Assembly: GCA_947453205.1 (NCBI GenBank)
Contig: CANGFT010000005.1
Span: 62,001-126,000, forward strand
Direction: 5' to 3'
Origin: Beijerinckiaceae bacterium
Lineage (GTDB): Bacteria; Pseudomonadota; Alphaproteobacteria; Rhizobiales; Beijerinckiaceae
DNA length: 64,000 nt
Below, one piece after another: positions 23,913 through 25,653 of the stretch (positions are counted from its first letter, which is position 1; every line of letters begins with the position of its first letter). The notes under the pieces were generated by a model. The model made no database searches, was not told the origin of the DNA, and saw only the letters and a program-made list of their open reading frames with translations. Both the position numbers and the translations under genes were made by a program.

Positions 23913-24119
23913 ATGTTCGAAATGGTTGAAAAACGGTCGGAATTCATCGGCACATATTACTGTGTCTATCTGGATGATTGGCTGGTGTTTCGGACCAAGA
24001 ACGCACGCACCGCCGCTCTCTGCCAGATGGGACGTGTCCAGTTCGGGAAGAAAAGCTTTCTGGCGCTGAGGGACGAGTCTGAAGCCAGGAAATCTCAACA
24101 GGCTGAAGAAGCTGCTTGA
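23913..24119 (+). CDS. Small hypothetical protein (68 aa)
   Basis: MFEMVEKRSEFIGTYYCVYLDDWLVFRTKNARTAALCQMG...; followed 25 nt later by a hairpin terminator. Confidence 0.5.
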   Translation: MFEMVEKRSEFIGTYYCVYLDDWLVFRTKNARTAALCQMGRVQFGKKSFLALRDESEARKSQQAEEAA

Positions 24120-24143: not shown

Positions 24144-24166
24144 CTCGACGGGCGAAACCCGTCGAG
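24144..24166 (+). terminator. Rho-independent-like terminator (CTCGACGGG-CGAAA-CCCGTCGAG then AGTTGTTTT)
   Basis: Perfect 9-bp stem followed by T-rich tract. Confidence 0.7.
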
Positions 24167-24174
24167 AGTTGTTT

Positions 24175-24399
24175 TCAGGCGGCGATTTGAGGCTTCATCC
24201 GGTCAGCCGAGATCAACCCCGCCATAATCACCACATCGCCATTTTCGTCCCTGACGATGACGCGAAGGCCCGGCGTCGGAAATTCAGCAGATAATTTTTC
24301 GATGACCCCCCAGACGTCTGTGGGGTCAGAAATGATCACGTTCTCAAGAGAATGAAGAACGTGATCGCCTTGCTTGATCGTGACGCTATAGCTTGGCAT
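24175..24399 (-). CDS. Small hypothetical protein (possibly DUF6894-like)
   Basis: Start MPSYSVTIKQGDHVLHSLENV at 24399; ends GLRVIVRDENGDVVIMAGLISADRMKPQIAA. Confidence 0.5.
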   Translation of the reverse strand: MPSYSVTIKQGDHVLHSLENVIISDPTDVWGVIEKLSAEFPTPGLRVIVRDENGDVVIMAGLISADRMKPQIAA

Positions 24400-24469
24400 T
24401 TCAAGTTCCTTGTTCTGGTTGGAACAGCGCTCAGATGGGAATTCCGCTAAGCGGTTTTCAAGACAAGCT

Positions 24470-24585
24470 GATGACTCCCCGGGCGCCGACTGTGATCCGT
24501 TCGGGGAGTTGGGGCGTAGGATGGAGGACGTTTCCTCCCGAAACTTCCTACTTCGCCCAATCCCCTTGAGGGGATTGGGTTTTTT
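24470..24585 (+). ncRNA. Candidate trans-acting small RNA with CU-rich (anti-SD) hairpin loop
   Basis: No plus-strand gene here, yet a strong terminator; hairpin 1 ACTCCCCG(24474-24481)/CGGGGAGT(24502-24509); hairpin 2 GTAGGA(24516-24521)/TCCTAC(24546-24551) with inner GTTTC-CTCCC-GAAAC (24530-24544). Confidence 0.5.
24556..24585 (+). terminator. Strong rho-independent terminator (CCCAATCCCC-TTGA-GGGGATTGGG-TTTTTT)
   Basis: Perfect 10-bp stem, 4-nt loop and run of T. Confidence 0.85.
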
Positions 24586-24711
24586 ATTGCCTGAGCGGCC
24601 TCGCCGCTCCAACCCGCTTGCTGGCCCCGCTGGAGGCCGCAAAAGCAACGTCCAGTTCACCAGCCCTGATGGCGGCCAGGCAAGAGTTCTCTGCGAGCGA
24701 CCAAACTGGCC

Positions 24712-25653
24712 TCAAGCCCCGAAGATCGACCACCCCGTGCGTCGGGTCAGCTCTTCAAGAGCGATCCGACCAAGATGGGAGTTGCCGGCCTGATCCAATC
24801 CGGGAGACCAGACCGCGATGGACGCCTTGCCTGGGGCTATGGCCAGAATCCCGCCCCCTACTCCACTTTTCCCGGGCAGACCGACGCGATAAGCAAACTC
24901 CCCCGAACCGTCGTAATGGCCACAGGTCAGCATCATCGCATTGATGCGGCGCGCGCGCTCCGCTGAGACCACCGAAAGTCCGGTCAATGGATTCACACCA
25001 TTGCAGGAGAGAAAAAGGCCAGCACGCGCCAGTTGCTCGCAGGTCATTGAAATGGCGCAATGATGAAAATAAACGCCGAGGGTGTGATCAACGGGGTTCT
25101 CAATGACCCCGAAGCTCTTCATATAATTGGCGAGCGCCGCATTACGAAAGCCAGTGCGCTTTTCCGAAGCCGCCACGTCTTTGTCGATGGACACGGCTCC
25201 ATCATCAGCGAGAAATTGCACAAAACGCAAAATTTCGCCCAATGTCTCCCGTGGCTGACGACCAGACAAGATGACATCCGTAACCGCTATCGCGCCGGCG
25301 TTGATGAAGGGATTTCTCGGAACGCCCAATTCATGCTCAAGCTGCACAATGGAATTGAAGCGATTGCCGGATGGCTCCCGCCCCACATAGCGCCACAGCC
25401 GATCGCCAATGCGCCCCAGCGCCAATGTCAAAGTGAAGACCTTTGAAATGCTCTGAATTGAAAAAGGAACGGTGCAGTCGCCTCCGGAGAAAACATTTCC
25501 CGCCACATCGACGATCGCCAGACCAAAATGATCTGGATCGACATTAGCAAGCTCCGGAATATAGGTCGCAACAGTCCCGCGATCCTTACGCGCGCGCATT
25601 TCTGCAACAATCTCGCTCACAATCACATCAAGGTCTGGCGCAGACTGCTTCAT
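24712..25653 (-). CDS. glsA: Glutaminase
   Basis: 313 aa; [67 protein letters not shown]. Confidence 0.95.

Follow-up and report, generated by a model that had tools for sequence, protein, structure and literature searches.

The window, a stretch of 64,000 nucleotides from a Beijerinckiaceae bacterium, carries a candidate small RNA (sRNA) gene on the plus strand between two protein genes that both lie on the minus strand. The features of the locus are:

24175..24399, minus strand: gene for a 74-amino-acid protein, the divergent neighbour, with its start at 24399
24473..24586, plus strand: candidate sRNA gene, with hairpins, terminator, fold (z −4.1) and covariance-model match; ends inferred
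24474–24481 and 24502–24509, plus strand: arms ACTCCCCG and CGGGGAGT of the 5′ hairpin, from sequence and fold; unconserved in two homologues
24516–24521 and 24546–24551, plus strand: outer stem GTAGGA/TCCTAC, from sequence
24523..24528, plus strand: GGAGGA, predicted partner sequestering the anti-Shine-Dalgarno (anti-SD) sequence; not at the equivalent site in the homologues G016 and G033
24530..24539, plus strand: anti-SD seed GUUUCCUCCC, an exact match to the alphaR8 10-mer
24530..24544, plus strand: seed hairpin GUUUC-CUCCC-GAAAC, a palindromic variant of alphaR8 GUUUCCUCCCUAGACUU
24545..24555, plus strand: spacer from seed hairpin to terminator, longer than the typical alphaR8 spacer
24556..24585, plus strand: intrinsic terminator CCCAATCCCC-TTGA-GGGGATTGGG-TTTTTT (stem 24556–24579, six T 24580–24585)
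24584..24691, minus strand: remnant (35 codons) of the C-terminal end of a DUF6641 gene, with its stop codon inside the sRNA T-tract
24712..25653, minus strand: glutaminase gene (PF04960), the convergent neighbour, with its end at 24712

The three hairpins, the terminator and its TTTTTT had been described in an earlier sequence-only reading of this DNA, and every quoted element was found on the plus strand between 24474 and 24585. In the terminator, a GC-rich stem of 10 perfectly matched base pairs closes a TTGA loop and is followed by six T residues, and the T-tract is present on the plus strand only. No plus-strand gene explains it, as had been claimed: the upstream plus-strand ORF (23913–24119) is followed at 24144 by a terminator-like hairpin of its own, and the neighbours are both on the minus strand. 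A further plus-strand ORF at 24410–24793 was rejected as a protein gene, as it continues past the terminator and lacks an NCBIfam match. The 74-amino-acid neighbour protein matched nothing in Pfam or NCBIfam, and a sigma-70 promoter scan at the locus found no sigma-70-like promoter. At the sequence level there is good support for an unannotated sRNA-like gene that has an anti-SD element and ends in an intrinsic terminator. The seed is identical to the 10-mer of the alphaR8 RNAs (Rfam RF00519, suhB), known as MmgR in Sinorhizobium meliloti and SisA–D in Caulobacter crescentus.

Predicted folding of the RNA

A 131-nt stretch covering the locus folded at −61.3 kcal/mol, compared with −44.6 ± 4.1 kcal/mol for 200 dinucleotide shuffles (z −4.1), none of which was as good. 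Structures with CCUCC paired to the adjacent GGAGGA (24523–24528) scored −58.3 kcal/mol and were dominant in the predicted ensemble. When the seed hairpin alone was enforced the value was −53.2 kcal/mol, and the middle element as drawn earlier, with GTAGGA/TCCTAC enclosing the seed hairpin, gave −51.9 kcal/mol. Pairing of the anti-SD sequence with GGAGGA is therefore predicted to be better than the seed hairpin by about 5 kcal/mol. For this species there is reason to doubt the earlier picture of a loop that exposes CUCCC: the GGAGGA pairing scores better and dominates the ensemble, and the loop is not the predicted ground state.

Among the three genomes that carry the locus, the GGAGGA masking element occurs in this species alone. 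In the folding model this upstream sequence can mask the seed, so that activity would probably be set by the transcript start site, by processing, or by Hfq opening the stem. Whether the predicted masking is real depends on the 5′ end of the transcript and on Hfq.

Conservation of the locus

BLASTN searches detected homologues in two of 50 congeneric genomes, both Beijerinckiaceae assemblies: G016 (90% identity over 63 nt) and G033 (80% over 59 nt). The locus is thus present in three of 51 genomes of the genus, the window's own included. The part kept in both homologues is the 3′ half, from seed to terminator: TTCCTCCCG, the terminator and, between them, a spacer whose last bases are CTTCGCC. 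Neither the 5′ hairpins nor GGAGGA nor the GTAGGA/TCCTAC stem is conserved. Substitutions in the terminator stem preserve pairing across the three sequences (A-U to G-U, and G-U to G-C). The seed flanks in G033 are GAAGC/GCTTC rather than GTTTC/GAAAC, and a small CUCCC loop is possible there in another register. When the pattern TTCCTCCCG..TTCGCCCARTCC was searched in the genome contigs, the G016 and G033 matches were real and all others were due to chance. Palindrome or flank matches in G002, G087, G127 and G050 were rejected as opposite-strand ribosome-binding sites with no terminator.

The setting of the locus differs between the three genomes. In G016 the RNA lies tail to tail with an intact DUF6641 gene (L091:7177-7746), which likewise ends in the T-tract. 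In G033 it is found 1.7 kb past the glutaminase gene and is again convergent with it. Glutaminase synteny was discarded as an anchor, being loose in G033, lacking in G016 and not seen within 1.5 kb in the other congeners. DUF6641 has one PHROG match, to the phage protein cluster phrog_31551; a phage origin argued from this neighbour was also discarded, since the match is a single one and no relative was found in viral contigs or named phages.

Some of these observations would fit a decaying extra alphaR8-type copy, in which seed and terminator survive although expression has ceased or GGAGGA keeps the RNA locked: the seed is masked in the predicted fold, the promoter scan gave no match, the locus occurs in few genomes and in differing settings, and the adjoining DUF6641 gene is reduced to a remnant. 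However, the exact 10-mer and the perfect terminator have been kept amid diverged surroundings, and the G016 homologue retains its 90% identity across the functional 3′ half. We therefore regard decay as unlikely.

Relationship to alphaR8 RNAs

An Rfam scan of the window detected no family at its cut-off. The best match at the locus was to suhB/mmgR (RF00519), with 22.6 bits against a gathering cut-off of 41 (E 0.024 in a search of 571 bases, 0.04 in the genome), and the alignment rests on CGUUUCCUCCC and ACUU. Other sub-threshold matches, such as mir-1249, IMES-4, anti-hemB and CRISPR repeats, were at chance level. The proposed kinship with alpha-r14 or CcsR found no backing, as neither family was among the Rfam matches up to E = 10. 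A check against suhB, also suggested earlier, pointed in the right direction, suhB, mmgR and alphaR8 being the same family and the best RNA-family match. Because weak suhB matches occurred in 14 of 14 control genomes, the suhB score alone cannot separate true from false matches.

With both strands counted, the 4.2-Mb genome has exactly four copies of the 10-mer GTTTCCTCCC: those in three RF00519-level alphaR8 genes and the one in this candidate. It is followed here by GAAACUU, an RRACUU-type continuation as in alphaR8; among 152 viral copies, GAAACTT ranks as the third commonest form.

We trained a covariance model (R1) on 73 viral-contig and phage RNAs of alphaR8-like type, leaving this locus out. 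R1 matched the window at 24506–24585 with 28.3 bits (E 1.9e-7), the next match having 7.9 bits. Genome-wide the candidate ranked fifth (E 1.3e-5), after matches of 56.4, 55.7, 48.6 and 34.4 bits and ahead of one of 17.7 bits. The training RNAs had been picked because they carry the 10-mer, and R1 gives the isolated 15-mer palindrome 14.6 bits. The seed thus contributes roughly half of the candidate's 28.3 bits, with position and terminator supplying the other 14. A 27.1-bit suhB match elsewhere in the same genome (L052) was rejected, as it is without CCTCCC and reached only 8.8 bits with R1. At least one R1 match, and often two to five, was found in all but three of the 51 genus genomes. In the window's genome (G000) two of the RF00519-level genes are in tandem on contig 87 and one is on contig 46, where it has a 33.5-bit partner; these form two tandem alphaR8-type gene pairs, contig 87:5256-5538 and contig 46:13557-13784.

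Besides the 10-mer and its continuation, the candidate shares with alphaR8 an intrinsic terminator shortly after the seed, though with a longer spacer, and the occurrence of several siblings at separate loci per genome. It differs in lacking the GCCC...GGGC hairpin directly before the seed: its own 5′ hairpin, of different and unrelated sequence, stops 20 nt upstream, and the alphaR8 5′ helix is mostly unpaired in the R1 alignment. It also has a palindromic GAAAC after the seed in place of UAGAC/UUGAC, and a self-complementary GGAGGA upstream. As the match lies below the Rfam cut-off and the 5′ hairpin is missing, we call the candidate alphaR8-like rather than a member of RF00519. A CU-rich anti-SD motif and a terminator are also common to the candidate and SmelA075/SmelA099, alpha-r14 (NfeR1) and CcsR. 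SmelA075 and SmelA099, however, have three or four hairpins, every one with CCUCCUCCC in its loop (PMC3927594), whereas the candidate has one UUUCCUCCC; the CCUCCUCCC loop motif is absent, and the motif there is a single copy of GUUUCCUCCC.

An anti-SD sRNA of independent origin that converged on the seed, for example from another CU-rich-loop family, would account for the low Rfam score and for a 5′ half and spacer that do not align with alphaR8. We consider this improbable, because the identity exceeds a Shine-Dalgarno complement, with ten bases and then ACTT at the same distance, the order of seed and terminator is that of alphaR8, and each of the other three 10-mer copies in the genome belongs to an alphaR8 gene. 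The element could also be nothing more than a terminator, one that stops read-through or marks the end of a convergent minus-strand transcript and makes no functional RNA. Its location next to glutaminase, with another gene on the other side, and its place at the DUF6641 gene end in G016 would suit this reading, but we find it very improbable given that the T-tract is on the plus strand alone and that the seed upstream of the stem, needless for a terminator, is also conserved.

The best reading of the locus is therefore a real, divergent alphaR8-like sRNA gene, which by analogy would share the alphaR8 mode of action. It is probably a trans-acting sRNA of the MmgR/SisA type, about 75–115 nt long, with its own terminator. 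As such it would be a fifth, divergent member of the alphaR8-type set in one genome, missed by Rfam, and its possibly auto-masked seed would make it a case in which one can test how sibling sRNAs come to be controlled differently while they retain one seed.

Proposed function and targets

The 10-mer of SisA, an alphaR8 RNA, pairs with mRNA and represses a TonB-receptor mRNA, as confirmed by compensatory mutation (PMC12559287), and MmgR of S. meliloti influences polyhydroxybutyrate storage (PMC12559287, PMC7143759). We infer that the candidate is transcribed and binds Hfq, which would hold the U-rich 3′ end while the GUUUCCUCCC seed, by analogy with SisA, pairs with GGAGGAA-type ribosome-binding sites. 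Such pairing would repress translation of the targets, mainly periplasmic substrate-binding proteins and metabolic enzymes. These targets would overlap those of the four alphaR8-type siblings elsewhere in the genome, and the candidate would have its own promoter and its own 5′ half, distinct from those of the siblings.

Start sites of the form GGGAGGAA-N1-9-ATG number 35 in the genome, compared with 5 for the reversed pattern. They precede 22 distinct ORFs, six of which encode periplasmic substrate-binding proteins according to Pfam (NMT1 four times, TctC and Peripla_BP_6). The others include two PQQ dehydrogenases, a CoA-transferase, an enoyl-CoA hydratase, an acyl-CoA dehydrogenase and a Rieske oxygenase. 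An exported-looking N-terminus was seen in approximately 11 of the 22 ORFs and in 1 of 14 after a control Shine-Dalgarno sequence (hypergeometric P ~0.008, worked by hand from signal peptides judged by eye). This bias towards exported and transporter proteins fits the transporter-rich SisA regulon, and concerns all the siblings rather than this copy specifically. The full complement of the 10-mer, GGGAGGAAAC, was not found in the genome outside the sRNA genes.

alphaR8-type RNAs in phages and plasmids

Searches for relatives of the candidate brought up alphaR8-type RNAs in more than 100 viral contigs and in several named phages. Typical alphaR8 cores gave at least 120 matches in viral contigs, and among the matches listed the 10-mer was accompanied by a terminator at 148 of 299 viral loci. 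The palindromic 15-mer was found in 69 viral contigs, with a terminator within 55 nt in 24 of them, compared with about 1% of random places.

The RF00519 cut-off was exceeded in viral contigs and in named phages: Bradyrhizobium phage ppBeUSDA76-1 scored 62.8 bits, and two phages recorded for Microcystis, Mwe-JY08 and yong2, scored 62.8 and 47.0 bits. Further R1 copies were detected in Bradyrhizobium phages ppBdUSDA122-1 and BDU-MI-1 and Erythrobacter phage XM05. No RNA feature was annotated at any of these copies. Such unannotated alphaR8/mmgR-type sRNAs are present in the named phages L430, L431, L432, L433, L434 and L233, and in viral contigs including L177:3724-3799, L219:3814-3897, L303 and L340.

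The phage alphaR8-type RNAs, many of which exceed the Rfam cut-off, adjoin terminase, portal, HNH or repressor genes. The copies in ppBeUSDA76-1 and ppBdUSDA122-1 lie just upstream of HNH, terminase and portal genes, that in XM05 just upstream of portal, and that in L177 between terminase and portal. The commonest matches of 113 flanking proteins were to terminase large subunits, head proteins, HNH nucleases, endolysins and integrases. Some of the viral contigs derive from isolate genomes, and their flanks may include host DNA, but neither the named phages nor the terminase-flanked copies can be accounted for in this way. It appears that alphaR8-type RNAs are common phage cargo in Alphaproteobacteria. 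A literature search found no paper linking alphaR8 or MmgR with phages; MmgR papers of 2016 and 2017 lay outside it, and an earlier mention is possible.

Phage palindromic alphaR8-like RNAs (L163, L165, L177, L219 and others) have the same GTTTCCTCCCGAAAC seed hairpin as the candidate, followed by an intrinsic terminator. They differ in having a short spacer and another terminator and 5′ hairpin, and they lie among phage genes, whereas the candidate lies among chromosomal metabolic genes. Because the candidate has the phage-type seed hairpin and adjoins a remnant of DUF6641, a family with a phage-protein cluster, it is conceivable, though we think it doubtful, that alphaR8 anti-SD RNAs are a mobile, phage-carried class tuning host or phage translation and that the window locus is a domesticated phage-derived copy. 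The phage alphaR8 RNAs matter more than the single locus. Together with the plasmid copies, they make phage manipulation of a host transporter-regulating sRNA network testable, and likewise the phage-mediated spread of the alphaR8 family.

Plasmids also carry such sequences: alphaR8-like matches were found in 91 plasmids, of Azospirillum, Methylobacterium, Bradyrhizobium and others, and those among the matches listed are unannotated. One example is on a Methylobacterium bullatum plasmid (NZ_LR743512.1:12319-12384). One common palindromic GTTTCCTCCCGAAAC alphaR8-like RNA is present in the related phages L163, L165, L173, L179, L203, L212, L225 and similar ones, where it lies between the holin/tail region and a RecE-like exonuclease operon. 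The viral contig L340, which bears an alphaR8 sRNA, also carries a phage diversity-generating retroelement RNA (RF03022) at L340:3208-3340.
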